Assembly (NCBI RefSeq): GCF_035582795.1
Contig: NC_134366.1
Coordinates: forward strand, 1,562,501-1,626,500
Reading direction: 5' to 3'
Length of the DNA: 64,000 nt
Origin: Mycteria americana
Lineage: Eukaryota; Chordata; Aves; Ciconiiformes; Ciconiidae
Shown: in pieces, positions 10,601 to 64,000 of the stretch
How the letters are laid out: each line of letters starts with the position of its first letter
Numbering within the stretch: position 1 is the first letter of the stretch
Program-made: the position numbers and the translations under genes
The notes under the pieces: generated by a model
The model's database searches: none
What the model saw: the letters and a program-made list of their open reading frames with translations, nothing else
What the model was told of the DNA's origin: nothing

Positions 10601-13600
10601 AGCGTTTAGTCCCAGGCTTAATCCAACCAGGCCGGGCTTTAGTTTTGCATTTACTTTCTTTACGCATCGATTTTCACTCGTCTTTATTTGGCCTTTGCAG
10701 CGCTTCCCTGCGAGCTCCTCCAAACCCATCCCCTCCGGCTCTACTTCAGCCAGCTAATTAGCGCTGATAATTTATAACATCCTTTGAGGGCTAAATTAAA
10801 ATCCTGTCGTTACCAAACTGACCCGCGTAGGAAATAACTCCTTCCCTGGGCTGACTCGGGGAATTTGGAGAAATTTGGGTGTGCTGGCAAACCCGCGGCT
10901 GGGTGATGGAGAAGGGCTCGGTGCCGGGAGGTGGCTGGGCTTGGGGACAGGAGGTGGCAGGGCTTGGTGACGCCACCGTGCCGGTGCCGCGCCGGGAGCC
11001 GGCAGGGAGCCATCTGCTCCCCATTACCAACCTTTTGATGTCGGTACCCGAGCCGCGGGCAGGGAGCGGCGAGCTTTGATGTGCGGCCAGCCCAGAGACG
11101 CACCAGCGCTCGCTCGGGACAGCCCTCGGCCATAAAACTTCCCCGTCAAGGGTTGATTTAAGCCCCACCTCGGTTTGCTTACGGGACTTCTGCCCTCCGG
11201 CCTAAACCAGGCGCGTCTTTGGGGTTTGAAAGGGATGGGATGGCTCCTGCTTTTTTCAGTGTTAAATACTTAAAAAAAATTGTTTTTTTTTTTTAAAATG
11301 AAAAGAGCGGAAAGGAGAAGGCAAACCTCCCCCGGCTTTGCAAGCCTTTAACGAGCCCTTTTGCTCTCTCCAGCCTTAAAATCTGAGTCGTGATAACCCG
11401 CGGTACCCAAACCTCTCTCAAAAGCCAGCGCCGGCGGAGAGGTGCTGCTTTTCGCTCTCTTAAGACTCCGAGGAGGTCGCGGGGCTCCAAGGCGAAGCCC
11501 ACGGGGATGGGCGTGCGTGGAGAGGTGGGCGTCGAGCTGGCGGCGAAGGGATGCTCGCCGGGATGCAGCGGGCGCAGTTTCTACTCCGTTAATGCAGGCA
11601 ACAAATTAAATCAGCCGGTGCTTGTGCTCCGTGGGATTGGTACTCGGGGGAACAGCCAAAAATTCCTATAAAATTCAATTTATCCTTCCGCAATCGTCTC
11701 TAGCTAAAGAGAATCTGCTGTAAACGCTCGCCAGCGGGGTCCCAGCCCTCGCAGCGATTTCGGCACGGGGATGGTTCCGGCAGGGACGGTTCTGCCGCCG
11801 TCGATAGCTGCCGCCGAGCGCCTGGCTTTGATTAACGGGCTGAATAAGCGAGCGTTGCTCAAACGGCCCCCGGAGCGGGGTTAGGACAGCGTCCCTCCCG
11901 CCTGGGTGTCCGGCCGTGCCGGATTCATCCCTGCAAATCAGGGTTGTGCCGGTAATTAGGCTTTAACGTGGGTGAAATAAATGGGGGGCGGTGATCAGCT
12001 GCTTTCCTTCTCCCTCGCTCCAGCTACGGATAATACCCCCACCGCAGCGCTCGCCCCCCCAAACCAGGCCGACTCGCCCAGGGCCAGCTCGCGCCCTTTT
12101 TCCAGCTTTTTTTCCAAAGAAAACAAGAGCGAGGAGCGGCCCCCGTGCCTCCCCGGGGGCTGTGCTCCCAGCCCAGCAGCGTGGCTGGAGCACGCCGGGA
12201 AGCGTGCCGGGACCGGGCTGGGGAGCGCACCGGAATTGGGCTGGGGAACGTGCTGGGACCAGGCTGGGAAGGGCTCCGGAATTGGGCTGGGGAGGGTGTT
12301 GGGATCGGGCTGGGAAGTGTGCCGGCACCGGGCTGGAGAGCGTGCCGGGATCGGGCTGGGAAGCGCGCTGGCACCGGGCTGGGGAGCGGGCTGGGAAGCG
12401 TGCCAGGATCGGGGTGGGGAGCGTGCTGGCACTGGGCTGGGAAGCTCACCGGGACTGGGCTGGTGCGTTCCCCAGGACCACACTGGGAAGCGCGCCTGGT
12501 TTGGGGTGGGGAGCGTGCCGGCATCGGGTTGGGAAGCGCACCGGGACCGGGCTGGGAAGCTCACTGGGACCAGACTGGGAAGTGCGTGCCTGGTTTGGGG
12601 TGGGGAGCGTGCCGGCATCGGGTTGGGAAGCGCACTGGGACCAGACTGGGAAGCTCACTGGGACCAGACTGGGAAGCGCGTGCCTGGTTTGGGGCGGGGA
12701 GCGTGCTGGGACCAGGCTGGGAAGCACACCGGGACTGGGCTGGGAAGCTCACCGGGACCAGACTGGGAAGTGCGTGCCTGGTTTGGGGTGGGGAGCATGC
12801 CGGCATCGGGTTGGGAAGCGCACTGGGACCAGACTGGGAAGCTCACCGGGACTGGGCTGGGAAGCTCACTGGGACCAGACTGGGAAGCTCACCGGGACTG
12901 GGCTGGGAAGCTCACCGGGACCAGACTGGGAAGCTCACCGGGACCGGGCTGGGAAGCTCACTGGGACCGGGCTGGGAAGCTCACCGGGACCAGACTGGGA
13001 AGCGCGCGCTGCCCGCCTGGCTGTGGGGCAGGGGTTGGCAGGAGGAGCGCCGTCCCCAAGGTGGGGACAGGGACGGGGACAGCCCTGCTCGCCTCGGCCA
13101 GCGTCTTAATACCCTTTTTCTTCCCCCCTCTCCAGTCTTCCAAGAAGCCCAAGACGGCGGAAGCGGACACGTCGAGCGAGCTGGCCAAGAAGAGCAAGGA
13201 GGTGTTCAGGAAAGAGGTGAGTCCCCCAGCGCCCCGGGAGGTTTGTCACCGTCCCACGCCGGTGACGCGACCCGGGGGGACGCCGGAGCGGGGGCGTCGG
13301 GGTTCGCCGTCCCCGCGCGGGCGATGGGACGCCGGAGCGGGGGAGCCCGCCGCTCGGGGACGTCGGGGCGGCCCGCCGTCCCGCGGACGGTTGGGTCTGG
13401 GGGTCGGCGGATCCCCGGGGACGCGTCACCCCCGGGGCCGGGGCCGGGGCCGGGGAAGGGGCGGCGGGGCCGGTGGGCGAGGGCAGGGCCGGGCGCAGCT
13501 CTCTGCTCCCGCAGATGTCGCAGTTCATCGTGCAGTGCCTGAACCCCTACCGCAAACCCGACTGCAAGGTGGGGCGGATCACCACCACCGAGGACTTCAA

Positions 13601-15948
13601 GCACCTGGCGCGCAAGGTGCGGGGGACGCGGGGGGACGCAGGGGACATGGGGGGACGCGAGGGGACGCGGGGGGATGCGGGGTACATGGGGACGCAGGGG
13701 ACGCGGAGGACGCAGGGGATGCGGGGGGACGTGGGGGGACGTGGGGGATGCAGGGGGATGCGGGGTACATGGGGATGCAGGGGACGTGGGGGATGCAAGG
13801 GACGCAGGGGGATGTGGGGGACACAGGGGATGTGGGGGGACGTGGGGGGACGCAGGGGACGTGGGGGATGCAGGGGGATGCGGGGTACACAGGGACACAG
13901 GGGATGTGGGGGATGTGGGGGGCCGCGGGAGATGGAGGGGGATGCGGGGTACATGGGGACGTGGGGGATGCAGGGGACGCAGGGGGATGCGGGGGACACG
14001 GGGGATGCAGGGGGATGCAGTGGATGTGGGGGGACGTGGGGGATGTGGGGGGACACGGGGGATGTGGGGGGATGCGGGGTACATGGGGACGCAGGGGACA
14101 TGTGGGACACGGGGGACGTGGGGGATGCGGGGGGATGCGGGGGACACGGGGGGGATGCAGGGGACGGGGGGGGATGTGGGGGACGCAAGGGACGCAGGGG
14201 ATGCGGGGGGATGCAGGGGACACAGGGATGCAGGGGACGGGGGACACGGGGGGGATGCAGGGGACGCAGGGGGATGTGGGGTACACGGGGACGCGGGGGG
14301 ACACAGGGGACGTGGGGGGACGCAGGGGGACGTGGGGCGGGGGGTGGCAGGGCCCCTCCCGCGGGCGCGGCGTGCCGGGTAGGGGAAGGGAAACGGCAAC
14401 GGCGGGGGAAGGTGGGGGAGTCCCAGCCGATATTTGGGGGACCACAGCCAGCGGTTGGGGGCGCTTGGGAACGAGGGGACACATTGGGGAATATTTGGGG
14501 AACATTTGGGGAACCCAGGAACTATTTCAGGACTAAGAGGCAATATGTGGGGACTAAGCAAATATTTGGGAATAATAGCCAATATTTGGGGAACATTTGG
14601 GAATAATGGGACACATTTGGGGAATAATTAGGAATAATAGGAAATATTTGGGCAATATTTGGGAATAATGGGACACATTTGGGGAATAACAGCCAGTATT
14701 TGGGAATAAGGGGAAATATTTGGGGAATGATAGCCAATATTAGGGGAATATTTGGGAAAAATAGGAAATATTTGGGAAACAATAGCCAATATTTAGGGAA
14801 TGTTTGGGAATAATAGGAAATATTTTCAGAATAATAGCCAGTATTTGGGGAGTATTTGGGAATAATGGGCAATATTTGGGGAATAATAGCCAATATTTAG
14901 AGAATATTTGGGAATAATGGGACACATTTGGGGAATAATAGCCAGTATTTGGGGAATATTTGGGAATAATGGGAAATATTTGGGGAATGATAGCCAATAT
15001 TTAGGGAATATTTGGGAATAATGGGACATATTTGGGGAATAATAGGAAATATTTGGGAATATTTAGGGAATAATAGCCAATATTTAGGGAATATTTGAGG
15101 AATACTAGCCAGTATTTGGGGAATAATGGGAAATATTTGAGGAATAATAGCAAAATACTTTGGGAAATAATAGGAAATACTTGGGGAATAATAGCAAATA
15201 TGTGGGGAATACTTGGGGAATAATAGGAAATGCTTGGGAATATTTGGGGAATAATAGGAAATATTTGGCCATATTTGGGGAATATTTGGGGAATAGGAAA
15301 TATTGGGGAATATTTGGGGAATAATAGGAAATATTTGGAGACTATTTGGGGAATAGGAAATATTTGGGAATATTTAGGGAATAGGAAATATTTGGGAATA
15401 TTTGGGGAATAATAGGAAATATTTGGAGAATATTTGGGGAATATTTGGGGAATAGGAAATATTGGGGAATATTTGGGGAATAATAGGAAGTATTTGGGAA
15501 TATTTGGGGAATAATAGCAAATATTTGGAGACTATTTGGGGGATATTTGGGGAATAATAGGAAATATTTGGAGAATATTTGGGGAATATTTGGGGAATAA
15601 TAGCAAATATTTGGAGACTATTTGGGGGATATTTGGGGAATAATAGGAAATATTTGGAGAATATTTGGGGAATATTTGGGGAATAATAGCGAGTATTTGG
15701 GGACTAATGGCAAAATAGCTTGGGGAATGCCCAAGACTTGGATTGCTGGGAATAACGGTGCCGTCCCGGCCCTGCCGCCCCCGCAGCTGACTCACGGCGT
15801 CATGAACAAGGAGCTGAAATACTGCAAGAACCCGGAGGATCTGGAGTGCAACGAGAACGTGAAGCACAAGACGAAGGAGTACATCAAGAAGTACATGCAG
15901 AAATTCGGGGCCATCTACAAACCCAAAGAGGACACGGACCTGGAGTGA
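951..15948 (+). CDS. SETD2: SETD2, C-terminal part (last seven coding exons)
   Basis: SETD2 is the nuclear H3K36 trimethyltransferase that travels with elongating RNA polymerase II. Only the C-terminal 468 residues are here; the AWS-SET-postSET catalytic exons lie left of the window. Exons, all bounded by AG/GT: 951-1626, 2531-2665, 3252-3391, 6059-6170, 13136-13216, 13515-13616, 15787-15948 (TGA at 15946-15948). The seven exons splice in one frame. In order they encode a basic stretch and Q-rich segment (KQQQQLQ), a low-charge P/Q/V/T-rich linker, a WW domain (LPPNW...YYYH...WDPP) split over exons 3 and 4, and the SRI domain that binds the phosphorylated RNAPII tail (exons 5-7, ending KEDTDLE). 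Identity to mammalian SETD2, compared from memory, is very high in WW and SRI and lower in the linker. The 7 kb intron before the SRI exons and the last intron have expanded through tandem repeats. Confidence 0.97.
2531..2665 (+). CDS. SETD2: SETD2 exon: linker
   Basis: A 45-codon phase-0 exon beginning [14 protein letters not shown] and ending GQPQPIQQ. It is flanked by GTTTCAG and GTAAGG, and joins the previous exon after PPIVQ exactly as in mammalian SETD2. Confidence 0.95.
3252..3391 (+). CDS. SETD2: SETD2 exon: proline-rich segment and first half of WW domain
   Basis: Begins [18 protein letters not shown], a proline-rich stretch known in SETD2 to contact the WW domain, and continues into [13 protein letters not shown]...YYYHVVT. 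It ends after the second base of an Arg codon. The donor GTGAGCGTGA at 3392 is repeated 17 bp downstream, at 3409 (see findings). Confidence 0.95.
3392..6058 (+). other. SETD2 intron within the WW domain
   Basis: Unique-looking intron sequence with ordinary T-rich and A-rich tracts, for example at about 3737-3754 and 4467-4490. The only noted structure is the duplicated donor at its 5' edge. Confidence 0.7.
6059..6170 (+). CDS. SETD2: SETD2 exon: second half of WW domain
   Basis: Encodes (R)[17 protein letters not shown] and then an acidic segment ending [10 protein letters not shown]. It supplies the second WW tryptophan region. The acceptor is CCTTCAG and the donor GTAAGTGC. Confidence 0.95.
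6519..6872 (-). mobile_element. CR1 LINE, truncated 3' end
   Basis: The plus strand begins with an antisense ATTCTGTG-type tail (AATCACAGACTCACAGAATC) and runs into the canonical avian CR1 3' region: GGTTGGAAAAGACCTTTAAG, GATCATCGAGTCCAACC, CTGGGCAGCCTGGTCCAGTG, and GTAGAGAGCGATGAGGTCTC near 6852-6871. Sense is therefore the minus strand and the 3' end is at about 6519. Only the last ~350 bp (end of ORF2 and 3'UTR) remain, a typical 5'-truncated copy. It sits in the SETD2 intron antisense to the gene. Confidence 0.9.
6873..9596 (+). other. SETD2 intron, unique-looking
   Basis: Intron between the WW and SRI exons. No gene, array or recognisable transposon was seen in this stretch. Confidence 0.6.
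9597..9690 (+). repeat. 94-bp direct repeat, copy 1
   Basis: Starts CACAAGGAGAAATTAGCACC and ends GGCACTGATTTTT. It recurs apparently without mismatch at 10211-10304, 614 bp away. It contains the hairpin AGAAATAG-AGTTT-CTATTTCT and an internal duplicate of CACAAGGAG. Near copy 1 a second short motif, GCATCCTTTTAAGATGCAAA, occurs at about 9549 and 9702. Confidence 0.85.
9935..10000 (+). repeat. Short (CCCCACCTCTCCATC)n array
   Basis: About four copies of a 15-bp unit, CCCCACCTCTCCATC, in the SETD2 intron. Confidence 0.75.
10211..10304 (+). repeat. 94-bp direct repeat, copy 2
   Basis: Second copy of the repeat at 9597-9690, in the same orientation in the same SETD2 intron. Near identity implies a recent or gene-converted duplication. 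Confidence 0.85.
12180..13015 (+). repeat. 23-bp minisatellite in SETD2 intron
   Basis: The unit is AAGCTCACCGGGACTGGGCTGGG with variants; the period was checked as 23 bp at 12841-12864. The left part is more diverged. The middle has a longer composite unit with GTGCGTGCCTGGTTTGGGG. Because 23 is not a multiple of three, all three plus-strand frames stay open (frames of 851, 372 and 465 residues), none of which is a gene. Confidence 0.92.
13136..13616 (+). CDS. SETD2: SETD2 exons: start of SRI domain
   Basis: Two exons, 13136-13216 and 13515-13616, separated by a 298-bp GC-rich intron. They encode [20 protein letters not shown]...FRKE and [20 protein letters not shown]...DFKHLARK. These are the first helices of the Set2-Rpb1-interacting (SRI) domain. 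Confidence 0.95.
13617..14350 (+). repeat. G-rich ~9-bp repeat array, last SETD2 intron (left part)
   Basis: Degenerate GGGGGACGC, GGGGGATGC and GGGGGACAC units run from the donor of the penultimate exon. The strand is nearly C-poor and G-run rich, so it could form G-quadruplexes. Open frames on both strands follow from the period of about 9 bp. Confidence 0.9.
14455..15725 (+). repeat. AT-rich minisatellite, last SETD2 intron (right part)
   Basis: About 1.27 kb of GGGGAATATTTGGGGAATAA-type units of variable length (about 20-60 bp) with the recurring motifs AATAATAGGAAATATTTGG and AATAATAGCCAATATTT. It nearly abuts the G-rich array, so one intron holds two unrelated arrays back to back. Confidence 0.9.
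15787..15948 (+). CDS. SETD2: SETD2 last coding exon: end of SRI domain
   Basis: A 53-residue exon with stop, beginning [19 protein letters not shown] and ending KPKEDTDLE. The acceptor CCCCCGCAG closes the repeat-filled last intron. The exon is almost identical to mammalian SETD2. Confidence 0.97.
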   Translation: MTHGVMNKELKYCKNPEDLECNENVKHKTKEYIKKYMQKFGAIYKPKEDTDLE

Positions 15949-16039
15949 CCACCACCCCCCATGGATGCCAGACCCAGCCAAACCTCGGAACACCCGATTC
16001 TGCCAGGATTCGCGGTTTTAAACCACCAACCTGTGAATT

Positions 16040-16071
<32 letters not shown>

Positions 16072-16119
16072 ATTATTATTATTTTTAAAAAAAAAAACCA
16101 CAAAAAAACCCCAAAAGAA

Positions 16120-16125
16120 AATAAA
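16120..16125 (+). promoter_or_regulatory. Proximal poly(A) signal, SETD2
   Basis: AATAAA about 170 bp after the SETD2 stop codon. It would give a short 3'UTR isoform. Confidence 0.5.
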
Positions 16126-16624: not shown

Positions 16625-16640
16625 AGAAAAATGACCAAAA

Positions 16641-16959: not shown

Positions 16960-18235
16960 CGCCTGAGGACACGCATCCCAGGGACACGTGCTTGGGGACA
17001 CATGGATGTCTGAGGGGACACATCCCGGGGACACACGGACACCCGAGGACACACGTCCCGGTGGCATGCTTGTGGGGACACATGGCTGCCTGAGGACACA
17101 CATCCTGGTGACACGCGTCTGGGGACACACAGGGACATCTGAGGACACGTGCTTGGGGGGACACACGGACATCTGAGGACGCACATCGTGGTGACATGCT
17201 CTTGCAGGGACACACGGATGCCCGAGGACACACATCCCGGGGACACGCGCTTGTGGGGACACATGGACACCTGAGGACACATGTCCTGGGGACATGTGCT
17301 TGGGGACACACGGACACCCAAGGACACACATCCTGGGGACAGGTGCTTGGGGGACATGGAAACCTGGGGACACGTGTCCTGGGGACACACGGACACCTGA
17401 GGACACACATCCAGGAGACACATGTATGTGGGACAGGGACACCTGGGGACATACATCCTGGGGACACACGGACACCAAAGGGGACACATCCCGGGGACAC
17501 AGACACCTGGGGACACGCATCCTGGGGACACACAGACACCCGAGGACACACATCCTGGGGACACACACTTGTGGGGACACATGGACACCCGAGGACACGC
17601 ATCCCGGGGACACAGACACCTGGGGACACGCATCCTGGGGACACACGGACACCAAAGGGGACACATCCCGGGGACATGCACTTGTGGGGACACACGGACA
17701 CCTGAGGACGCACATTCTGGGGACACACATTTGGGGGACACAGACACCTGGGGACACGCATCCTGGGGACACACGGACACCAAAGGACACACATCCTGGG
17801 GACACGTGTCCTGGGGACACATGGACACCCGAGGACACACATCCTGGGGACACACGGACACCAAAGGGGACACATCCTGGGGACACGCACTTGCAGGGAC
17901 ACACGGACACCCGAGGACGCACATCCCAGGGACACACGCTTGTGGGGACACATGGACACCCGAAGACACACATCCCGGGGACACACATTTGGGGGACAGG
18001 GACACCTGGGGACGTGCATCTTGGGGACACACGGACACTCGAGGACACACATCCCGGGGACACACGCTTGTGGGGACACACGGACACTCGAGGACGCACA
18101 TCCCGGGGACACAGACACCTGGGGACACACGTCCTGGGGACACACGGACACCCGAGGACACGCGTCCCGGGGACACACGCTTGTGGGGACACACGGACAC
18201 CCGAGGACGCACATCCTGGTGACACACAAGTGACA
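16960..18235. repeat. GGACACAC minisatellite between SETD2 and NRADD
   Basis: About 1.27 kb built from CGGACACCCGAGGACACACA, CCTGGGGACACACGGACACC and GCTTGTGGGGACACA blocks with variable spacing. It fills nearly all of the convergent intergenic space and reaches the NRADD poly(A) signal. Long open frames on both strands (up to 556 residues) are repeat artefacts. Confidence 0.92.
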
Positions 18236-18424: not shown

Positions 18425-18729
18425 TCACACGGCGGAGGTGGCGTCCCCGGGTCCCGCCAAGCGCTGGGCCGCGTCCTGCCGGCCGATGGCAGCCAGGGCC
18501 TGGCACAGGGTCTCCAGCGTGGCCCCCTCGGTGCCGGCCCAGGCGCTGAGCAGGGTGCGGGTGGGTGCCCGGCCCCGGCCGAAGGTGCCGATGGCGTCGG
18601 GGCCGAAGCCCAGGCGGGCGGCCAGGCTGCGCCAGTCCCCGCCGGGACCCCCGCTCTCCAGCAGCCGCTCCAGCTCCTCCTGCCGCTGCGGGGCCACCGC
18701 GCCCAACGGGTGCCCCTCGGGGCGGGGGG
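18425..18729 (-). CDS. NRADD: NRADD last exon: death domain
   Basis: Starts PRPEGHPLGAVAPQRQEELE and encodes the six-helix death domain (DWRSLAARLGFGPDAIGTF; TLLSAWAGTEGATLETLCQA), ending GPGDATSAV and stop. The tail resembles the PDZ-binding end of p75NTR (TSPV). Confidence 0.92.
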
Positions 18730-21700
18730 CTGCGGGTGGGGGCCAGGGTCAGCGCCCAAAATCACTGCCCGGCGCCCGGCGGTGCTTCTGCGCCGGAGGT
18801 GTCGCCGGCTCCCCGGAGAGAGAGACCTACCGGGGCATGGGTGCTGCCCGACCCCATTTGGGTGCTCCCCAACCCCATCTGGGTGCTCCCCAGGGCATGG
18901 GTGCTGCCCGACCCCATCCAGGTGCTCCCCAACCCCATCTGGGTGCTCCCGAGGGAATGGGTGCTGCCCGACCCCATTTGGGTGCTCCCCAACCCCATTT
19001 GGGTGTTCCTTGACCCCCATTTGGGTGCTCCCCAGGCCATGGGTGCTGCCTGACCCCACCCAGGTGCTCCCCAGTCCCATTTGGGTGCCACCCAAACCCA
19101 TCCGGGTGCCCCCTGACCCCCATTTGGCTGCTCCCCAGGGCATGGGTGCTCCCCGACCCCATCTGGGTGCTCCCCAACGCCATTTGGCTGCTCCCCAACC
19201 CCCATTTGGTGCCACCCAACCCCATCTGGGTGCTCCCCAAGGCATGGGTGCTGCCTGACCCCATTTGGGTGCCCCCCAACCCCATTTGGGTGCCCCCCAA
19301 CCCCATTTGGGTGCTCCCCAGGGCATGGGTGTCCCCCAACCCCATTTGGGTACCACCCAACCCCATCCGGGTGCTCCTCGGGGCATGGGTGCTCCCCAAC
19401 CCATCTGGATGCTCCCTGGGCTGTAGGTGCACCCCAAGCCCATCCAGATGCTCCCCAAGGTACAGCTGCTCCCTGGAGACAGAAGCACCCTGACCCCCAC
19501 CCACCCATGAACACAGGTGGTCCCCAACCCCATCCTGATGACATCGGGGGACAAACACCCCCCCCCAGACCCCACCCTGGGATGGGTGCCCTCGCCCCCC
19601 CCCAAAACTGGGTGCTGGGTGCTCACCCTTGCCGGGCTGGTGGGGCTCCTGCAGGCTGTGGGTGTCCAGGAAGACCCCGCTGTCACTGTGCAGCTTCTCC
19701 CCCTCGGGTGACGTCCCCAAGTCCCCTGCCCGCGCCTTGGCCAGCTGCTGCTTCTGCCTGCACGTGTGCCAGCTGCCCGCGGGGACGGAGGGGGGGTCAC
19801 CCAGGGTGCTGGGGTCCCCCCCCCCCCCCCCGTGTCCCCCCGCCCTCGTCGTCACCCCCAAACCTACCACTTGAAGGCCACGTAGGCGAGGAGTCCCACC
19901 ACCACGGCGGCCAGGAGGGAGCAGTAGACGGGGATGATGTCCTTGCCGGTGGCCTCGGGCGGCGGCGGCACGAACTTGGGGGTGGCGGGTGAGGGGTCCC
20001 CCGTCACCGGCTCCCCGGGGGGGTCCCCCTCCGTGCGCTCCAGGTCCTCGACTACGGGGATGAGGTTAGGGGAGCCCCGCTCCCGCCCACCCCTGCCTCA
20101 GTATCCCCTTGCAGGGAAACCAGCACCCACGGGTGGCTTGTGGGGTGGGGGGGGACACCCTAAATATGTTGGGGTGCTGCAGTGTGTCCCCTCAATTCAC
20201 CCCAATTTCCTTTACCCCCCCCCCCGTGGTGCACAGCACCCCAGACCCACCCACGGGGAAACTGAGGCACAGCCACCGACCCCACAGTGAAGACCCCCCC
20301 CCTCCCCGGGTGCCACCCCCCGCCCTTGGGTGCCACCCCCCCTTCCTGGGTGCCACTCACGGGTGCAGAGGGTGTCGCGGGTGGGGGTGCAGGCCCGGGC
20401 GGGCGGCAGCGGGCAGGGGGTGCAGGGCTGGCAGGGCTCCACCGCGCTGCTCAGCGCCGAGAAGGTCCGGTCTGGGGGGGGGTGGGGGGGTGGTGAAGGG
20501 TGCTGAGGGGTGCGGGGGGGGGGCGGGGGTGGGGGGGTACTCACTGTGGGTGCAGGGCTGGCAGCGGGTGTCGGCGTGGCCGCAGGGCTCGGTGACGCCG
20601 AAGCCGGGGGGACAGGGGGTGCAGCAGCCCCCCCCCGCCGCCGCCCTCCCGCTCTCGCAGCCCCCGCCCCACCCGGGCACCTGCGGACACGGGGGGGGGT
20701 GGGGGGGTCCTGCCTCAGTTTCCCCTCGACGTTGCCCCCGGGGAGGGGGGGGTGAGCATGACCCCCCGCCCAAAACCCCGCTGTGCCCCCCCCCCCCCCC
20801 CCATGGCGGGGCTGGTTTGGGGTCCCCGTGGTCCCGCGGGGGGGGGGGGGGAAGGGAGGGGGGGGTGCTCGGCCCCGGCGGGGTGGGTGGGCGTGGGAGG
20901 CGAGTGCTTGTGCCCGGGGGGGGGTACGATGGAATGGAGGGGGGTGAGAGACTAATGGATACAAAAAGAATAATGAAGGAATAATGAACTACAGCGAATA
21001 AAATTGGAAAATCGAATCAAAGGAAGAGAAGGAAATAACCGCAGAGAAAAGAAAAATAAGCGGGAAATAAAAGCCCCTGACATGAGCGAAAGGAGAAGGA
21101 GATGGAACGGAACGAAATGAAGGGAAATAAAGCGAAAACATATGAAGTCAAGTAAAATAAAATCGAAATAAAAAGAAATAGAGCGAGAGCAAAAGAAAGA
21201 AAATGAAAAGAAAATGAAATAAAGTAAAAGAATATGAAATGAAGTCAAAGAAAATAAAAAGAAATAAAGTAAAATAAAATGAAATGGAGTAAAATAAAAT
21301 AAAAAGAAAAGGAAATAAAGTAAAAGAAAATAAAATGAAATAAAGTAAATAAAGTAAAATAAAATAAAAAGAGAATGAAATAAAGTAAAAGAAAAGGAAA
21401 TAAAGTAAAAGAAAATAAAATGAAATAAATAAAGTAAAAAAAAAAAAACCGAAATAAAGTAAAATAGAGTAAAATAAAATAAAAAGAAAATGAAATAAAG
21501 TAAAAGAAAATGAAATAAAGTAAAAGAAAATAAAAATAAAAAGAAATAAAAGGAAACAAAGTAAAATAAAAAGAGAAGAAAAGGAAAGGAACTAAAATAA
21601 ACTAAACCCGAATGAAAGGAAACAAACGAAATCAAACAAAAGAAAAAGAAATACAGGACATGAAGTGAAGTGAAACGGCGCATCCCGGGCAGCGGCGGCC

Positions 21701-22479: not shown

Positions 22480-23085
22480 GGGGAGGGGGTGCAGCACCCC
22501 CGAGGGGGTGCAGGGCCGTGGTGTGGGTGCAGCACCCCACGTGGGTGCAGGACCCCAGTATGGGTGCAGGACCCCGGCGTGGGTGCAGGACCCCGGCGTG
22601 GGTGCGGGGTTTCGGCATGGGTGCAGCACGCCGGTGCGGGTGCGGCACCCTGGTGTGGGTGCAGGTTCTTGGTGCGGGTGCACAGGCTCGGCATGGGTGC
22701 AGCACCCCAGGATGGTTGCAGGATCCCGGCATGGGTGCACAGTCTTGTTGTGGGTGCAGGGTCTTGGCGTGGGTCGCAGCATGGGTGCAGGGTCTCGGTG
22801 TGGGTGCTGGGTCTCGGTTTGGGTGCAGCACCCTGGCATGGGTGCATGGCCTTGGCGTGGGTGCAGGACGCTGGCGTGGGTGCAGCAACCCCCCGGTGTG
22901 GGTGTGGGGTCTCAGTGTGGGTGCAGGGTCTCGGTGTGGGTGCAGAGTCTTGGTGTGGGTGCAGGACGCTGGCGTGGGTGCAGCAACCCCCCGGCATGGG
23001 TGCAGAGTCTTGGCGTGGGTGCAGAGTCTTGGCGTGGGTGCAGGGTCTTGGCGTGGGTGCAGGGTCCCGGCGTGGGCGCAGCGCC
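22480..23085. repeat. 19-bp minisatellite in DSD 3'UTR
   Basis: Units such as GTGGGTGCAGGACCCCGGC and GTGGGTGCAGAGTCTTGGC, period 19 bp, with occasional CAACCCCCCGG insertions that recur. It lies between the DSD stop codon and its poly(A) signal, so it is predicted to be transcribed. Confidence 0.9.
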
Positions 23086-23108
23086 CCGGCAGCTCCCCGC
23101 TCTCCTCC

Positions 23109-26100
23109 CTACCAGCCGCGGACGGGGTGCCAGAGCTCCACCACCTTCCCGCCGGCGTGGACGTAGTAGACGGGGTGCATGGCGGCGGTGGCGCAGGCCT
23201 GCGGTGGGTAGGGATGCTGAGCCGGGCGTGGCCGGGCGCGGCCGGGCGTGGCGTGGCAGGGCGGGTACTCACATGGAAGGGGATGAGAGCCAGGATGCTG
23301 CCCAACGGGAAGCGCCCGAAATCCAACCGGCCGTCGACGGCTTCCACCTGCCCGTGCTCCTGCGTCAGCCCCACCAGCCTGCGGGGACACGCCGTCACGT
23401 CGCCCACCCGCGTGTCTCCCCCACCCGTGCCACCCACGGCACCCACCTGAGCTGCGGGTGCCCCTCGATGGCGGCGCAGCCCGTGGGCGCCTGGTCCCGG
23501 CCGTGGAGGCTGAGGGCGGCCCACCCGCAGTCCACCAGGAGCTGGTTGCGGTGGGGATAGTGACCGATGACCCTGGTGAGGACACGGATGGCCACGTCCT
23601 CCGGGTGACAGGAACCCAGCAGGGTCTGCTGAAGGTCTGGGAGAAGAGGGTGCCCAGCCCGGGTTGGGGTGCGTCCCACCCTGGGGGGGGGTGTCACACC
23701 GGGGTTGGGGGGTGGTCCCAAGCCCCCCAACCCACTCACCGTAGAAGAGGTAGTTGCCCGGGTGGAGCTCGGTGAGCTGGGCCATCTCCGGCACCGGGTG
23801 GCTGCAGGACGGCGTGGAGCCGATGCTGGCCTGGGGACACGGCACGCCTGCCCGCCGCAGCCTGCCGGCACACGGGACCCTCTGAGCGGCCAGGGCACGG
23901 CCAGGGGGACATCACCCCCAGGCACCGTGGGAGTGGGAGCAGAGGTGGGGCCATCACCCCCCCACCCCAGGCACCATGAGGAACAAGATCAGAGGTGGGT
24001 CCATCACCCCTGGTGTCACAGGAGCAGGACCACAGGTGGGTCCATCACCCCCAGGTGCCATGGGAGTGGGACCAGAGATGGGTCCATCACCCCTGGTCAC
24101 CATGGGAGCAGGACCAGAGGTGGGGCCATCACCCCTGGGCACCATGGGAGCGGGACCAGAGTTGGGTCCATCACCCCCTGTGCCAGGCATCATGGGGAAC
24201 AAGATCAGAGGTGGGTCCATCACCCCTGGTGTCACAGGAGCAGGACCAGAGCTGGGTCCATCACCCCCAGGTGCCATGGGCGTGCGACTGGAGGTGACTC
24301 CATCACCCCTGGGCACCCCAGGAGAGCGACCGGAGGTGGTGATGCCCCAGGGAGCCCCAAATGTGCGAGGGAGACCCCCAGATGTTCAAGGGAGCCATCC
24401 AGATGTGGCAGAGCACCCCCCCCCCCACTGCGGTGCACCAGGAGGACCCTGAGATGTGCTGGGGAGCCAGCCAGATGTGCCTGGATGCCATCCAGAGGTG
24501 CCAGAGAGCCCCCAGATGCAACAGAGAGCCCCCCAAACACCCAAGGCAGGTCACGCCCCCCCCAGATATGCCAGAGCACCCCTCCAGATGTGCCTGGGAC
24601 CACCCCCAGCTGTGCCCAGGCATTCCCAAATGTGCCTGAGATCCACCCACACGGAGCTGGAGATGCCCCCAGATGTTTTAAAGCACTCCCAGATGTCTCT
24701 GGGAGCCCCCAGATGTGCCACTGCACCCCCAGATGTGTTGGAGACCCCTTCAGATGGTTCTGGGAGTCCCCAGATGTGCAAGAAACCCCACCCCGATATG
24801 CTGGAGACCCCCCAAGATGTGCCAGGGTGCCACCAGATGTGCCCAGGTGGCCCCAGATGTGCCAGAGATCCATCCAGATGTGTGTGGGACCCCCCCCAGA
24901 CATCCCATAGCAACCCCAGATGTGCCTGGGACCCCCCTCAGATGTACCAGGACATCCCCAGATGTGCCAGAGGTTCCCCCCCCAGACGGGCCTGCGATCC
25001 GCCCCAGGTATGCCAGAGCCCCCCCAGATGTGCCAGAGCACCCCCAGATGTGCTCAGGAGCCCCCAGATGTGCCTGAGATCCACCTATATGAGCCTGAGC
25101 TCTCCCCAGATGTGTTAAATCATCCCCAGATGTTCCAGGGCCCCCCTCCGATGGGTCAGAGCACCCACAGATGTGCGCAGGAGCCCACAACCCCCCGAGT
25201 ATGGCCCAGCTCCCCCAGATGTGCCTCGGACCCCTCCCAGATGTTCCCGGGCCCCTCCCAGCTGTGCCAGAGCCCCCTTAGCTGTGCTGCGGACACCCCC
25301 CCCCAGATGTTCTGGGGCACCCCCAGATGTGCCCAAGATCTTCCCAGATGTGCCCGAGCAGCCCAGATGTGTCCCATCCCCCCCTACATTCAAAGGCCAC
25401 GTGGCGAGGGGGTGCCATGTCCCCATGGGGGGGGAGGGGGGTCACACCCCTCCCCCGCTCTCCCTGGCCCCTCTGGGACCGTGGGGCTCATCGGGGGGTG
25501 GGGGTGGGGGTGTCAGAGCAGCCCCCCGAATTTTAAGGGGGAGGCGGGGGGGGCAGCAGGTTTCCCCGCGTGCCTCAGTTTCCCCACCGCAAACCGGTGC
25601 CACAACCGAGTGGGGTGGGGCCGCAGACCCCCCGGGAGGGGTCCCCAGGGGAGCACGGCCCCATGCACAGGGGATGGGGGTCCTGGGGGACCCCACTGCC
25701 CCCCCCCCCCCCAAAGTGGGAACCACCCGGCAGCAATTCCCTGCGGGATGCAGAAACCCGGCTGGGAGGAGCGGGTGACAAGCGGGGGGGGGGACACACA
25801 ACGACACAGGTCCCAACCTGCCACCAAAGCCACATCAAAGGTGAGCGGAGCTGCCAGCGTCCTCCTCCAGCACCCCGGGGGGGCTTTGTAGGGCCCCCTT
25901 TTATGGGGGGCATTTGCATTTACAGCCAGGCACCGGGGTTTTATGGGGTGGGGGACACCCCCCTCCCCCACGGTGGCCAGCTTGGCCCCCTCCCCCCGCC
26001 CCAAATCCCCTTAACTCTGCCCGTCCCTGGGTTTGGGACACTCACGCGGTGACGAAGTCAAGCACGGCGGCGGCGGTGGCCCGGGCGATGGCTTGGATGG

Positions 26101-28722
26101 CCGGGACATCGCGGCAGCCGTAGGTGTCCCCGCAGTGAGCGTAGACCCCCACCAGTGTCACCTCCTCCGGTGCCTCCTCGGCGATGGCCCGGGCCAGGGC
26201 CACCGCACCGGGGTCCGTGGGCCGCACGCCGGCTGCCGGGCCAGGAGGAGGAGGAGGGTCCCAGCGTGGCTCGGGGGGGTGGGTGCTGGGGTGGGGGGGG
26301 TGGGGGGGGCTTTGGTGGCCAATGTTGGGTGAGATGGTGGAGATGGGGGGCTTGGGGGGACGGGGGCATCACCCCCATGGAGCGTCCTGGGGGTGGGCGG
26401 GTGAAGATGGGGGTTGGGGGGGCTGAAATGTCCCATCGTGGGGGGTTATGGGGGGCTCGCCCCATGGAGCACCCTTGAAGAATGATTGGGGGGGGGTCTT
26501 GAATGTCCCATCCTGGTTGAGCTGCGGGGGGGACATGGGGGTCCCCCGCCATGGAGCATGCTTGAATAATGGCTTTTGGGGGGGGGGTGTCTCAAATGCC
26601 CCATCCTGGGGGTTATGGGGCACCCCTGCCCCATGGAGCACCCTTGAAGATGACTTTTTTTGGGGGGGGTGTCTTAAATGCCCCATCCTGGTCGAGCTGG
26701 TGGGTCTGGGGGCTTGAGGTTGGCGGGGCACAGAAGAACAACTTCTTGTGGGGGTGGGGGGCTCAAATACCCCATCCTGCTTGAGCTGCTGGGGCTGGGG
26801 GGGGACATGGAGCATGGCACCCCGGGGAGCATCCGGGGGGGGGTGCAACCACCCTTGGCGAGAACGCGCGATGTCCCCCCTCCGCATCCCCCCACCCCAC
26901 AGCACCCCAGGCACTGGTGGGATCCCAGAGGCTGGTGGGATCCCAGACACCGGTGGGATCCCAGATGTTGGTGGGATCTGAGATTCAGGTGGGATCCCAG
27001 ACGCTGATGGGATCCCAGACGCTGATGGGATCCCAGATATTGGTGGGATCCCAGATGCAGGTGGGATCCCAGACACCAGTGGCATCCCAGATGTTGGTGG
27101 GATCCCAGACACTGGTGGGATCCCAGATGTTGGTGGGATCCCAGAGGCTGGTGGGATCCCAGATTCAGGTGGGATCCCAGACGCTGATGGGATCCCAGGC
27201 ACCGGTGGGATCCCAGAGGCTGGTGGGATCCCAGACATTGGTGGGATCCCAGACACTGGTGGGATCCCAGACACCGGTGGGATCCCAGATGTTGGTGGGA
27301 TCCCAGAGGCTGGTGGGATCCCAGGCACCAGTGGGATCCCAGATGCAGGTGGGATCCCAGACATTGGTGGGATCCCAGACACCGGTGGGATCCCAGACAC
27401 CGGTGGGATCCGAGATTCAGGTGGGATCCCAGACGCTGATGGGATCCCAGACACTGGTGGGATCCCAGATATTGGTGGGATCCCAGATATTGGTGGGATC
27501 CCAGGCACCGGTGGGATCCCAGAGGCTGGTGGGATCCCAGGCGCCGGTGGGATTTGGGGTGTGTGGGGGTTACTTTGGGGGGGGTCACCTACCCCTGCCG
27601 TTCCCGCAGTCGAGCTTGAGCCAGACGAGCCAGCGCTTGCCGGCGGGCAGCGGGTGCTGGCGCAGGAGACCCAGGGCCCGGGGGCTGTCGAGGAGGAGCT
27701 GGAAGGTTTGGAGGCGCTGGGCCAGGGCCGCGCACTCCTCCAGCCGCCCCCCCGGCAGCGGGTAGGCGTAGAGGATGTCATCGAAGCCCCCCGCCGCGAA
27801 GAACCGAGCCTCGGCCAAGGTGGAGACCACGATGCCGCGGCGGGTGCCGCCCGTCGCCAGCTCGGCACCTTCTCTGGGGGAGGGGGTGGAGGGAGGGGGT
27901 GATGGGGGGTGCTAAGGGGGTGCTGGGGGGGCACGGGGGGGTCTGGGAGGATGCCGGGGGGATGGTGGGGTGCTGGGGGGATGCTGGAGGGGAAGGTGGG
28001 GGATAGTGGGGGGGTGATGGGGAGGAAGGTGGGGGGATGCTGGGGGATGTTGGGGGGATGCTGGGGGAGAAGGGAGGGGATACTGGGGGGATACTGGAGG
28101 GGAGGTGGGAGGGTGCTGGGAGGATGCTGGGGGGATACTGGAGGGGACGATGGGGAGGAAGGTGGGGGATACTGGGGAGGATGCTGAGGGGTTGCTGGGG
28201 GGGATGATGGGGAGGAAGGTGGGGGGGTGCTGGGGGGGAGGATGGGGGGAGGATGGGGGGTGCTGGGGAGGATGCTGGGGGGATACTGGGGGGATACTGG
28301 GGGGGAAGGCGGGGGTTGCTGAGGGGGAGGATGGGGGGAGGATGGGAGGGATACTGGGAGGATGCTGGAGGGATGTTGGGGGGATGCTGGGGAGATGCTG
28401 GTGGGGGGGACGCTGGGGGGGATGCTGGGGGGATTTTGGGGGGAGGATGGGGAGATGCTGGGGGGGATGCTGGGGGGTTGCTGGGGAGGGGGGTGGGGGG
28501 ATGTTGGGGGGGATGCTGTGGGGGGATGCTGTGGGGGGATGCTGGGGGTGGGGGGGGCACACTCACAGCGTCTTGTGGGTTTTGACGTGGGGGCGCAGGC
28601 GGAGGCCGAGGGCCCGGCAGCGTTCCCGCATGCGCTCGGCGTTGCGCCGCATGGTCGCCTGCTCCAGGGTCAGCGCCGGGGTGGGCAGCTGCTCCAGGGG
28701 GGCCCCCAGCCAAATGCTGGTG
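23109..28722 (-). CDS. DSD: D-serine dehydratase (PLP- and zinc-dependent), 5' end unresolved
   Basis: Exons (minus, 5'->3'): 28567-28722, 27593-27873, 26046-26232, 23740-23861, 23447-23636, 23273-23378, 23109-23198; all joins keep frame. The product is a fold-type III PLP enzyme that converts D-serine to pyruvate and ammonia, as characterised from chicken kidney. The PLP lysine lies in PHVKTHKT. Numbering from the IWLGA position makes it residue 45, as in the chicken enzyme. Zinc ligands His and Cys are in IPFHACAT, formed across an exon join. Other matches include [51 protein letters not shown] and the C terminus [10 protein letters not shown]. From IWLGA to the stop there are 374 residues versus 376 in chicken (from memory). 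Chicken starts MWLGA, but here that codon is ATT. The exon begins one base into a codon (C ACC AGC ATT TGG), so the start must come from an upstream exon I could not find, or from ATG 22. The gene otherwise looks intact. Confidence 0.93.
23900..24315. repeat. ~42-bp minisatellite in DSD intron
   Basis: Units like GGTGCCATGGGAGTGGGACC followed by AGAGATGGGTCCATCACCCC, about ten copies, with a longer variant carrying GGAACAAGATCAGAGG. Confidence 0.88.
24340..25385. repeat. CCCCAGATGTGCC-type array in DSD intron
   Basis: About 1 kb of irregular units of about 20-27 bp centred on CCCCCAGATGTGCCAGAG, abutting the preceding array in the same intron (23862-26045). Confidence 0.88.
25386..26045. other. 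DSD intron, remainder
   Basis: GC-rich intron sequence with G and C homopolymers ending at the exon donor. Nothing else recognised. Confidence 0.6.
26440..26840. repeat. ~95-bp tandem repeat in DSD intron
   Basis: About four diverged copies of a unit with CATGGAGCACCCTTGAAGAA, a G run, and AATGCCCCATCCTGG. Confidence 0.8.
26915..27555. repeat. 18-bp BamHI-site minisatellite in DSD intron
   Basis: About 35 copies of GGTGGGATCCCAGACACT-type units, period 18 bp, nearly every unit with GGATCC. The period is a multiple of three, so long frames stay open on both strands (282 and 304 residues): repeat artefacts. Confidence 0.95.
27905..28555. repeat. GGGGGGATGCTGG array in DSD intron
   Basis: Degenerate ~13-15-bp units GGGGGGATGCTGGGG with GGAGGAAGGTGGGG variants. 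It fills most of the intron between exons 27593-27873 and 28567-28722. It is G-run rich on the plus strand. Confidence 0.9.
28567..28722 (-). CDS. DSD: DSD exon carrying the PLP lysine
   Basis: Reads [20 protein letters not shown]...[14 protein letters not shown]...[10 protein letters not shown]. The acceptor CCTCCGCAG gives an exon starting with one leftover base, so a coding or non-coding exon upstream must supply the first two bases if the start lies there. Confidence 0.92.
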
Positions 28723-29104: not shown

Positions 29105-29810
29105 TCCCTCGGTCTCAGGTGGACACTTGGGACTGGGACCTATGGGACTGGGAAACCGGGGAGTGGGACACCTGAGTCACCTCAAACAGGGACACTGGGA
29201 GCAGGGACAAGTGGGACTGGGACACCTGGGACTGGGACACCTGGGAGAGGGACACTTGGGACAGGGACAAGTGGGACTGGGACACCTGGGACTGAGACAC
29301 CTGGGACAGGGACACTGGGAACAGGGACAAGTGGGACTGGGACACCTGGGAGAGGGACACTTGGGACAGGGACACTGGGAACAGGGACACTTGGGACTGG
29401 GACCTATGGGACTGGGAAACTGGGGAGTGGGACACCTGGGTCACCTCGAACAGGGACACTGGGAACAGGGACAAGTGGGACTGGGACACCTGGGACTGGG
29501 ACACCGGGAACAGGGACAAGTGGGACTGGGACACCTGGGACTGGGACACCTGGGACAGGGACATATGGGACTGGGATGTGTGGGACAGGGACACATGGAT
29601 TGCCTGGGACTGGGACACTTGGGACTGGGACACTTGGGACTGGGAAACCTGGGACTGGGAAACCTGGGAGTGGGACACCTGGGTCACCTAGGCTAGGGAC
29701 ACTGGGAGCAGGGACACCTGGGACAGGGATGCCCGAGACTGGGACACTGGAAACGGCCACCTGGCACTGGGACACATGGGACTGGGCCACCTGGGCCCAG
29801 GACACGGGGA
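29105..29810. repeat. GGGACACCTGGGACT array upstream of DSD
   Basis: Units of about 15-20 bp such as GTGGGACTGGGACACCTGGG and ACAGGGACACTGGGAACAGG, with larger repeated blocks (GGGACCTATGGGACTGGGAA occurs twice). Confidence 0.9.
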
Positions 29811-30310: not shown

Positions 30311-32860
30311 TGTGCCCGGGGCTGCTGAGACCTCCCGTGCTCATGACACGTGGGTGCGCGGCTGCTGAGGCCTGGCACGTTCATGACACGTGGGCACAGG
30401 GTTGCTGAGGGCTGAGGCCGCACGTGCTTGTGACGTGTGCACATGGCTGCTGAGAGCCCGGCTGCCCCGTGCGCGTGACGCAGGGGTGCAGGGCTGCTGA
30501 GACCCCCCACGCTCGTGACACAGGGGTGCAGGGCAGCTGAGACCCCCCACGCTCCTGACACAGAGGTGCACAGCTGCTGAGACCCCTACACTCGTGACAC
30601 AGGGGTGCAGGGCTGCTGAGACCCCCCACGCTCCTGACACAGAGGTGCACAGCTGCTGAGACCCCTACACTCGTGACACAGGGGTGCAGGGCTGCTGAGA
30701 CCCCCCACGCTCGTGACACAGGGGTGCAGGGCTGCTGAGACCCCCCACGCTCGTGACACAGGGGTGCAGGGCAGCTGAGACCCCCCACGCTCCTGACACG
30801 TGGGTACAAGGCAGCCGAGCCACAACCACGTCCATGGCACATGGATACGCGGCTGCTGAGACCCCCCATGCTTGTGACACAGGGGTGCAGGGCTGCTGAG
30901 ACCCCTCACACTCGTGACACGTGGGTACAAGGCATCTGAGACCTTCCACACTCGTGACACATGGGTACAAGGCATCTGAGACCTTCCACACTCGTGACAC
31001 AGGGATGCACGGCTGCTGAGACCCCCCATGCTTGTGACACAGGGGTGCAGGGCTGCTGAGACCCCCCACACTCGTGACACGTGGGTACAAGGCATCTGAG
31101 ACCTTCCACACTCGTGACACATGGGTGCAGGGCAGCTGAGACCCCCCACGCTCATGACACAGGGGTGCAGGGCTGCTGAGACCCCCCACGCTCGTGACAC
31201 GTGGGTACAAGGCAGCCGAGCCACAACCACGTCCATGGCACATGGATACGCGGCTGCTGAGACCCTCCATGCTCATAACACGTGTGTACAGGGCTACTGA
31301 GATCCCTCCCACTCAGGAGACGTGGGTGCACGGCTGCTGAGACCCCTTACAGTCGTGACACACGTGTACATGGCTGCTGAGACCCCCCCGCCTCGTGACA
31401 TGTGGGTGCACGGCTGCTGAGACCCTTTACACTCATGACACGTGTACATGGCTGCTGAGGCCCCCCCACGCTTGTGACACCTGGGGCTACGGCTGCTGAG
31501 AGCCCCCCCACTCATGACACGTGGGAGCACGGCTCTTGAGCCCCCCCCAGTCTGGTGACGCAGGGGAACTGGGCTGCCAAGACCCCCCCACCCCTGACAC
31601 ATGGGTGCAGGGCTGCTGAGACCCCCCATGCTCGTCACACGTGGGTACACAGCTGCTGAGTACCCCCCCCACACCCGTGACACACAGGGCTAGGGCTGCT
31701 GAGACCCCCCCCACTCATAACATGTAGGTGCATGGCTCTTGAGACCCCCCCAGTCTTGTGACACAGGGGTGCACGGCTGCTGAGACCCCCCACGCTCGTG
31801 ACACGTGGGTGTACAGTTGCTGAGACCCCCCCCCACTCATGACAAATGGGGCTAGCGCTGCTGAGACCCCCCACACTCATGACACGTGGGTGCACGGCTC
31901 CTGACCCCCCCCCCCCAGTCTCATGACACAGGGGTACAGAACTGCTGAGACCCCCCCACTCGTGACACATGGGTGCACGGCTGCTGAGCCCCCCCCCCCC
32001 ATGACATGTGGGTACACAGCTGCTGAGACCCCCCTCAACTTGTGACACATGGGTGTACAGTTGCTGAGACCCCCGCCCACGCCTGTGACACGTGGAGGCA
32101 CAGCTGCTGAGACCCCCCACGCTCGTGACACATGGGTGCAGGGCAGCTGAGACCCCCCACACTCATGACACCCGGGTGCAGGGCAGCTGAGACCCCCCAC
32201 ACTCATGACACAGGGGTGCAGGGCTGCTGAGAACCCCCACGCTCGTGACACGTGGTTACGTGGCTGCTGAGACCCCCCACACTCGTGACACAGGGGTGCA
32301 GGGCTGCTGAGACCCCCCACGCTCGTGACACCCGGGTGCACGGCTGCTGAGACCCCCCACACTCATGACACAGGGGTGCAGGGCTGCTGAGACCCCCACG
32401 CTCGTGACACATGGGTACAAGGCAGCTGAGACCCCTCACACTTGTGACACAGGGTTGCACGGCTGCTGAGACCCCCCACGCTCGTGACACAGGGGTGCAC
32501 GGCTGCTGAGACCCCCCACACTCGTGACACAGGGGTGCAGGGCAGCTGAGAACCCCCACGCTCGTGACACAGGGGTGCAGGGCTGCTGAGACCCCCCATG
32601 CTCGTGACACGTGGGTACATGGCTGCTGAGACTCCCCACACTCGTGACACAGGGGTGCAGGGCTGCTGAGACCCCGCACACTCGTGACACAGGGGTGCAG
32701 GGCAGCTGAGAACCCCCACGCTCGTGACACAGGGGTGCAGGGCTGCTGAGACCCCCCACGCTCGTGACACGTGGGTACATGGCTGCTGAGACCCCCCACA
32801 CTCGTGACACAGGGGTGCAGGGCAGCTGAGACCCCCACGCTCGTGACACGTGTGTCCCCA
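30310..32860. repeat. 40-bp satellite-like array between DSD and NBEAL2
   Basis: About 2.5 kb of a 40-bp unit: GCTGCTGAGACCCCCCACGC followed by TCGTGACACAGGGGTGCAGG (period checked at 30481-30521). Variants carry GTGACACGTGGGTACAAGGC, so many units contain the E-box CACGTG. The middle (about 31300-32090) is more diverged; both flanks are nearly homogeneous. Multi-unit blocks recur, for example the CACAACCACGTCCATGGCAC block at about 30820 and 31224. Confidence 0.95.
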
Positions 32861-33420: not shown

Positions 33421-61331
<27,911 letters not shown>

Positions 61332-62500: not shown

Positions 62501-62699
62501 CCGGTAGCGGGACGGCAGAGGGTTAACGCAGGCCAGGGACGCGTCCCGGCAGCCGCGTCCCCACCGGCGATGGCACCGTGGCGGAGGCCAGCGCGGTTTT
62601 GCAGCGTGACCCAGCTAGGGAGGTGACACCGAGGTCCTGCCTCGGCCCCGGTGTCTCTCGGAGGTGGCATGGCCACCCCGTCGGCGTGGCACGGCGAGC

Positions 62700-64000
62700 A
62701 GGCACACCCCGCCGGCGTGACACGCTCACCGTGCAAGGCCGCGCACCCGGACGGCGCGGCACGTGTCGCCGGGAGCACGCAGCCCGGCGCCGCAGCACGT
62801 GTCCCCAAGGGCGCGCGCGCACACTGATGGCGCGGGACGTGTCCCCGTGCGAGCGTGCACGCCCCGACGGCGACGCGTGCACCCCCGTGCAAGCTTGCAC
62901 GCCCCGACGGCGTGGCACGCGTCCCCGTATGACCACGCGCACCGTGACGGCGTGGCACGTACGACCACGCGCATCCCAACGGGGTGGCACGCGTCCCCTG
63001 TGCCACCACGCACGCAAACCAGCACGGCACCTGTCCCCGTACCGCCACGCGCAGCCCCGCGGCGCGGCGCCTGTCCCGGTGCGAGCGTGAACACCCCAGC
63101 GGCGTGGCACGCGTCCCCGTACGACCGCGCACACCTGGTGGCGTGGCACGCGTGCTTTGCACGAGCTCGCCCACCTTGACGGCATGGCGCGTGTCCCTCT
63201 ACGGCCACGTGCACCCGATGGCGCGGCACGTGTCCCCTGTACGAGCGCGTGCACCCCGGCGGCGTGGCATGTGTCCCCGTACAACTATGCACGCCCCAAC
63301 AGCGTGGCACGTGTCCCCGTACGACCACGGCCACCTTGATGGCACGGCACGTGTCCCCTGTATGATGAGCAGGTACGCCCCAACGGCGTCACATGTGTCC
63401 CCATACCACCACGGCCACCTTGACGGCACGGCACCTGTCCCCTGTATGAGCACGTACACCCCAACGGCGTCACACGTGTCCCCGTACAATGGCGTGGCAC
63501 GTGTCCCCATAGAACCACAGACACCTCCACGGCATGGCATGTGTCCCATACGACCACGGCCACCTCCACGGCACGGCACAGGTCCCCATACAACCACAGA
63601 CACCTTGACAGCACGGCACGTGTTCCCATACGACCACGGCCACCTCCACGGCATGGCACAGCATGGCATGTGTCCCCATAGAACCACGGCCACCTCCATG
63701 GCATGGCACAGGTCCCCATACGACCACGGTCACCTCCACGGCGTGGCACATGTCCCCATACGACCACGGCCACCTCCATGGCATGGCACAGGTCCCCATA
63801 CGACCACGGTCACCTCCATGGTGTGGCACATGTCCCCATACAATCACAGCCACCTCCACGGCGTGGCACGTGTCCCCATACAACCACGGCCACCTCCACG
63901 GCACGGCACAGGTCCCCATAGGACCATGGCCACCTCCATGGTGTGGCACATGTCCCCATACAACCACATCCACCTCCACGGCATGGCACAGGTCCCCATA
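62700..64000. repeat. GTGTCCCCATACGACCAC array, right end of window
   Basis: Units of about 42-45 bp: GGCACGTGTCCCCATACGAC + CACGGCCACCTCCACGGCAT. The left part (62700-63330) is diverged and CpG-rich; the right part is increasingly homogeneous up to the window edge, so the array probably continues. Many units carry the E-box CACGTG. Confidence 0.92.

Follow-up and report, generated by a model that had tools for sequence, protein, structure and literature searches.

Why should the introns and spacers of a few neighboring bird genes be crowded with tandem repeats while their exons are spared? The question is raised by a 64,000-nucleotide stretch of the Mycteria americana genome (hereafter the window; C2:1,562,501-1,626,500, where C2 is contig NC_134366.1 of assembly GCF_035582795.1), in which the 3' portion of SETD2 (+ strand) precedes three genes on the - strand: an NRADD-like gene, D-serine dehydratase (DSD), and NBEAL2. 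In birds, such repeat-filled introns have been known mainly from the tiny dot chromosomes. An initial annotation of this DNA, made from its letters, had ascribed a profusion of minisatellites to a regional process. As detailed below, the window crosses into an island that is rich in GC and dense in genes, close to one end of a contig as large as a macrochromosome.

Results

Tandem arrays form a bounded island

Tandem arrays of period 7 or more (>6) were called using Tandem Repeats Finder (TRF) in the window, which is without N. This gave 59 separate runs totaling 20,357 bp, with 20,250 array bases in positions 12,001-64,000 (38.9%) versus 107 in positions 1-12,000. The first large array begins at about 12.2 kb, in agreement with the start given in the initial annotation (12,180). 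Merging at 30 bp reduces these runs to 52 arrays, and those of at least 150 bp number 29 and sum to 19,330 bp; the earlier count of more than two dozen is therefore borne out, and the unit sizes listed with it were recovered (9, 18, 19, 23, 24, 39, 40, 41, 60, and 177-196 bp). Chance was rejected as the origin of this density since 20 dinucleotide-preserving shuffles, run on 1-kb blocks of this DNA (52 kb), have a mean of 105 array bases and reach at most 252.

Genome background was likewise rejected, on the strength of 45 stretches picked by place from the assembly (1,348,465,905 bases in 279 contigs), with eight stretches retrieved by telomere motif (six of them overlapping one another) and one all-N stretch left out. 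Of the 100,000 bases in ten 10-kb stretches at 1.8-80 Mb on C2, 396 (0.4%) are array; the figures are 861 of 85,900 (1.0%) for fourteen stretches at 1.0-1.71 Mb (excluding C2:1,626,501-1,630,500, which belongs to the island) and 462 of 24,000 for thirteen from other contigs. With the background this much less dense, a regional process, as originally proposed, accounts better for the 38.9% seen here than chance or a uniform background.

Both edges of the island are sharp. On the left, GC in 500-bp steps rises from 0.590 to 0.698 at position 12,001, just ahead of the first array and within the SETD2 intron 6171-13135. On the right, C2:1,626,501-1,630,500 is 17% array with a GC of 0.666, its last long run ending at base 3013, while the stretch from C2:1,632,501 has no arrays and a GC of 0.466. 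The island thus measures ~55-58 kb, from ~12.2 kb in the window to between C2:1,629,513 and 1,632,501, the stretches past the window being sampled rather than contiguous. The window lies 1.56 Mb into a contig of 175,112,271 bases, which is macrochromosome-sized (175 Mb), and not on a dot chromosome.

Arrays fill long introns and spacers, and the exons located are spared

Among the modeled island introns, an array run of at least 100 bp was found in 9/9 of those of at least 1 kb, in 13/19 of those of at least 500 bp, and in 0/23 of those under 300 bp; some exons were not located, and a few modeled introns may really be two. The four spacers are 52, 60, 66, and 52% array, the last one being everything beyond the first located NBEAL2 exon, where a 5' (first) exon may be hidden; the first coding exon of NBEAL2 was not found. 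It is therefore true that almost every long intron or spacer carries an array. Typed island coding bases overlap arrays at 22 of 7,407 positions, all in one 24-base NRADD piece that is a doubtful exon; once this piece is dropped, 0 of 7,383 located coding bases lie in arrays, and the exons located are indeed untouched. The accompanying statement that they splice perfectly stands for part of the genes. When GT/AG sites were picked automatically without using phase (one third of junctions would match by chance), phases agree at 6/6 junctions in SETD2 and at most of those in NBEAL2 (29/40), but at 1/4 in DSD and 0/2 in NRADD. Exons missed in modeling may explain many of these mismatches.

Since SETD2 spans the left edge, its own codons provide a comparison. 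GC at third codon positions (GC3) is 231/334 (0.69) outside the island and 96/106 (0.91) inside (Fisher p 3.5e-6). A GC-raising process thus acts on exons too, although arrays stay out of them, and GC-biased conversion, named earlier as a possible companion of array growth, gains indirect support from this jump.

Three of four searched units sit in one array, one is shared by two introns, and many arrays are nested

The unit cores of four arrays were searched across the whole assembly, using a search that may skip very common words. For the 41-bp array (58556-59212) and the 39/314-bp array (59456-60900), all genome matches (7/7 and 16/16, respectively) fall inside the array itself, and for the 40-bp array (30474-32849) 23 of 24 do, with one stray on C22. 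The 24-bp core has all of its 6 matches in the island, 5 in 33584-34512 and 1 in 37286-37607. These four units are, but for the stray, confined to the island, and three of them are essentially single-array, as expected if units were private and unrelated. The fourth departs from this rule: the two arrays with the 24-bp unit are 91% identical over 322 bp, 34730-35263 is a diverged relative, and since exons lie between the two NBEAL2 introns concerned, one unit can occur in more than one intron. Across all 29 arrays, there are 8 related pairs at E 1e-3, mostly weak.

In 16 of the 29 arrays, the best period exceeds by a factor of 1.9 or more a base period that is also more diverged. We read such nested periods as old arrays that would have been re-amplified as blocks. 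The arrays are diverged, with a match of 72-96% (median 84%) and base periods often near 70%. This divergence, and the presence of arrays only where exons permit, would also suit passive accumulation, in which units are born at a normal rate in an old, gene-dense, GC-rich region and are seldom deleted. However, the SETD2 introns just outside the edge are equally free and hold 107 array bases in 12 kb, and nested periods point to repeated growth, which makes passive accumulation unlikely in our view.

Most arrays are not explained by G-richness

A second alternative is that replication slips or forks stall at G-rich, quadruplex-forming DNA, so that high GC suffices and no other regional agent is needed. 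Quadruplex motifs account for 11.1% of the bases in arrays, 7.7% of island bases outside arrays, and 0.2% of positions 1-12,000, and four arrays are more than half motif. GC and array cover are correlated across the 45 sampled stretches (Spearman 0.49), and quadruplexes have been named as a candidate cause in related systems (PMC6792250, PMC12954441). However, the share of quadruplex-motif bases exceeds 10% in just 5 of the 29 arrays, the other 24 being at or below that value. Mean GC is lower in arrays (59.7%) than in the non-array noncoding DNA of the island (65.3%), and three arrays are AT-rich, so that AT-rich and G-rich sequence have both been expanded. Together with a sampled stretch that has a GC of 0.625 and is 0.8% array, this leads us to set aside G-rich slippage, originally listed among the causes, as a general one; as a complete explanation we find it unlikely, slightly more so than passive accumulation. 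A transcription-linked strand bias found no clear support either: relative to the coding strand, the 20 genic arrays divide 12 to 8 in orientation. The scarcity of motif-rich arrays, the lower GC of arrays, the AT-rich arrays, and the lack of a clear strand rule suggest that the agent acts on place more than on sequence.

In the samples taken, neither GC nor position suffices alone

Other array-rich stretches in the sample are at C2:0.6 Mb (34%, GC 0.80), C2:0.8 Mb (11%), C1:0.6 Mb (11%), and C4:0.6 Mb (23%). The first of these (C2:600,001-610,000) contains what look by eye like SCO-spondin exons. Six stretches have a GC of at least 0.60 (one of them C2:1,626,501-1,630,500), and five of the six are more than 10% array, whereas only one (8.1%) of the 39 stretches with a GC below 0.60 is above 5%. 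At 0.6 Mb, single 1-2 kb samples thus contain arrays on C1 and C4 but none on C3 or C5, and two samples of this kind close to the opposite end of C2 have none either. A general subtelomere effect was therefore rejected as insufficient alone. Arrays were found at GC-rich sites close to large contig ends, yet the counterexamples suggest that, in these samples, high GC is insufficient alone, and so is proximity to an end.

Discussion

What kind of local agent could produce such an island? We propose that a domain of elevated and long-lasting meiotic recombination, with slipped repair and GC-biased conversion, drives its arrays, an explanation to which we would give an even chance of being right. 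A local DNA-repair process would repeatedly build tandem arrays from short pieces of intron or spacer and would also regrow existing ones as longer blocks. More precisely, strand invasion that slips or falls out of register while a meiotic break is repaired would create arrays and make them grow again, and GC-biased conversion in the course of such repair would lift GC and GC3. Selection would purge arrays entering exons or splice sites, leaving them to accumulate in introns and spacers. The GC3 jump in SETD2 is what regional conversion bias would leave, the nested periods are what repeated re-expansion would leave, and the presence of the 24-bp unit in two NBEAL2 introns could stem from template switching, or from one array converting another. 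We infer that the agent would be recombination or break repair, and that it may still be at work.

Several observations weigh against this proposal. As seen above, a GC-rich stretch need not hold arrays, and neither need contig ends (C3, C5, and the other end of C2). The GC3 jump reflects a regional GC bias, which does not tie the same events to array making. Many arrays are old by their divergence, and a test for exon stuttering, described below, found nothing above control.

A broader reading, which we offer tentatively and believe somewhat less readily than not, is that array making belongs to a bounded chromosomal domain on a macrochromosome, and is tied neither to sequence type nor to dot chromosomes. 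The edge of this domain would lie inside a SETD2 intron, it would act on almost any noncoding DNA, G-rich or AT-rich, to give nested arrays, and units could pass between introns of one gene. If so, SETD2, half in and half out, would be a natural experiment to locate the agent. The island and the gene that spans its edge separate an effect of local domain from one of chromosome size, and they offer a concrete place for testing recombination versus replication as the cause.

Two further explanations are highly improbable. An assembly artefact, with repeats collapsed, duplicated, or mis-joined, might be suspected from a nearby scaffold gap (100 N in one sampled stretch), but no N interrupts the window, diverged copies and nested periods are not products of assembly error, and exon order and phase are preserved at the SETD2 junctions and most NBEAL2 junctions. 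Retention for a function, such as chromatin organization or regulation of the gene cluster, could be argued from arrays that hug exons (13619-14337 begins at base 3 of its intron, and 27895-28555 takes up 661 of 693 bp), but the mostly dissimilar units, the lack of a clear strand rule, and the differing composition mean that no shared binding unit is visible.

How does the island compare with known systems? The closest is the "sequence stuttering" of avian (chicken) dot-chromosome genes, whose mechanisms were left open (PMC12954441). Its traits include extensive within-species length variation and repeat blocks isolated in single introns; exon-edge copies are occasional (190/5,572 dot introns), 36 of 236 exon-stuttering introns lie on macrochromosomes, and stuttering is said to be present in gerbil introns (data not shown in that paper). 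As in stuttering, long introns at our locus are filled with local, imperfect tandem expansions, coding exons are intact, and intergenic sequence is hit too. Unlike stuttering, the arrays of this single assembly form a bounded island close to one end of a contig of 175 Mb and include a 24-bp unit common to two introns. No exon copies were found in its introns: the best non-self match of an exon edge in a neighboring intron scores 36.5 bits, which equals the top of five shuffles and is below the 42.1 threshold used in PMC12954441, and exon stuttering was therefore rejected for the island. SETD2 and NBEAL2 are absent from the main text of that paper, whose supplementary gene list may include either.

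GC-rich "hidden" avian genes such as leptin and TNF, described with an emphasis on quadruplex-forming motifs (PMC6792250), resemble the island in their tandem-repeat introns and flanks and high GC, but here 24 of 29 arrays have at most 10% quadruplex-motif bases. For other genes, repeat-rich DNA has been linked to absence from assemblies (PMC6792250, PMC12954441). GC-rich subtelomeres of macrochromosomes, where genes are missing and proteins change fast (PMC8449477, PMC11061957), share the raised GC and the location near a macrochromosome end, but the term "tandem repeat" is absent from the main texts of both papers. The p-arm end of chicken chromosome 2 is listed among the accelerated regions (PMC8449477), and chicken NBEAL2 has been placed at chr2:3.845-3.860 Mb (PMC5098818). 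Finally, the runaway GC regions of gerbils, ascribed to GC-biased conversion (PMC7403616), are bounded GC outliers like the island, but concern a mammal, and "tandem repeat" and "minisatellite" are absent from the text available for that paper. In the literature on NBEAL2 and avian missing genes, or on avian and subtelomeric intronic tandem repeats, we found no account of this island among the matches listed. The kind of repeat growth is thus already known, mainly from tiny dot chromosomes as stuttering; what is new is a bounded island on a macrochromosome.

Genes and arrays of the window

The names SETD2, NRADD, and NBEAL2 are provisional, being based on motifs and gene order alongside domain matches. 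When ten pieces were compared with Pfam, four matched at the curated cut-off (SRI, Death, and BEACH twice), two fell below it, and four had no match. In the NRADD-like gene, the piece 19867-19974 resembles, by eye, a membrane segment. The features are listed below.

Table 1. Genes, island parts, and principal arrays, in window coordinates (., no strand assigned).
Feature	Position	Strand	Remarks
Array-rich island, window part	12197..64000	.	TRF 20,250/52,000 bases; extends to between C2:1,629,513 and 1,632,501
Array-poor part of SETD2 gene	1..12000	.	Internal control; 107/12,000 array bases
SETD2, 3' part	951..15948	+	Seven located exons; SRI domain 54 bits; name otherwise provisional, from sequence
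SETD2 exons	951-1626, 2531-2665, 3252-3391, 6059-6170, 13136-13216, 13515-13616, 15787 to stop codon ending 15948	+	
NRADD-like gene, located pieces only	18458..20097	-	Death domain 18458-18682, 52.4 bits; name provisional; phases unmatched
DSD, located exons only	23112..28722	-	phmmer to PDB 3anu, E 4.7e-43 for 27588-27911
NBEAL2, located exons only	33424..58383	-	BEACH domain exons; PDB 1t77 LRBA E 2.6e-10; name provisional
23/94-bp array	12201..13005	.	SETD2 edge intron
9-bp G-rich array	13619..14337	.	SETD2 intron; 96% quadruplex-motif bases
AT-rich array, 11/31/52/104-bp hierarchy	14560..15706	.	SETD2 intron; GC 0.33
Array	17027..18227	.	SETD2-NRADD spacer
21/60-bp array	18833..19455	.	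Within NRADD-like gene
A-rich array	21191..21601	.	Spacer; GC 0.15
19/98-bp array	22487..23090	.	23 bp off last located DSD exon
18/72-bp array	26906..27540	.	DSD intron
11-bp G-rich array	27895..28555	.	DSD intron
15/60-bp array	29186..29795	.	Spacer past first located DSD exon
40-bp array, 59 copies	30474..32849	.	DSD-NBEAL2 spacer
24-bp polypyrimidine array	33584..34512	.	NBEAL2 intron
Diverged relative of 24-bp array	34730..35263	.	Same NBEAL2 intron as 33584-34512
24-bp unit of 33584-34512 again	37286..37607	.	Different NBEAL2 intron, exons between
18/71-bp nested array	39282..39869	.	67% and 96% match
34/103-bp array	41566..42201	.	NBEAL2 intron
Degenerate TTAGGG-like array	43342..44007	.	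NBEAL2 intron
26/78-bp array	51086..51449	.	NBEAL2 intron
49/98/196-bp array	54302..54762	.	NBEAL2 intron
Four arrays (7-bp A-rich, 31-bp, 40/100-bp, 39-bp)	55280..57573	.	Single 2,679-bp modeled NBEAL2 intron
41-bp array	58556..59212	.	Past first located NBEAL2 exon
39/314-bp nested array	59456..60900	.	
40-bp array	63291..64000	.	Continues off window end

Outside the island, a segment of ~100 bases is seen by eye as two near-copies within the array-poor SETD2 intron, at ~9600-9700 and ~10210-10310, a dispersed rather than tandem duplication. A repeat at 6520-6870, which we take to be CR1-like, was used as a 351-base probe; it has no second match in the window and matches nine separate places in ~270 kb of other DNA sampled, which is suggestive of mobile-element depletion in the window, nine matches being too few to prove it.

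Exact TTAGGG occurs 23 times in 43300-44300, around the degenerate TTAGGG-like array, versus 14 times across the other 51 kb of the island. In the whole assembly, exact (TTAGGG)4 occurs 24,600 times (14,882 forward and 9,718 reverse). On C1, it is interstitial at 8.15, 195.9, and 212.2 Mb, in addition to a run near the contig end, and around an interstitial motif deep in this contig (C1:195,860,412-195,863,435) TRF cover is 45%, with periods of 167-221 bp.

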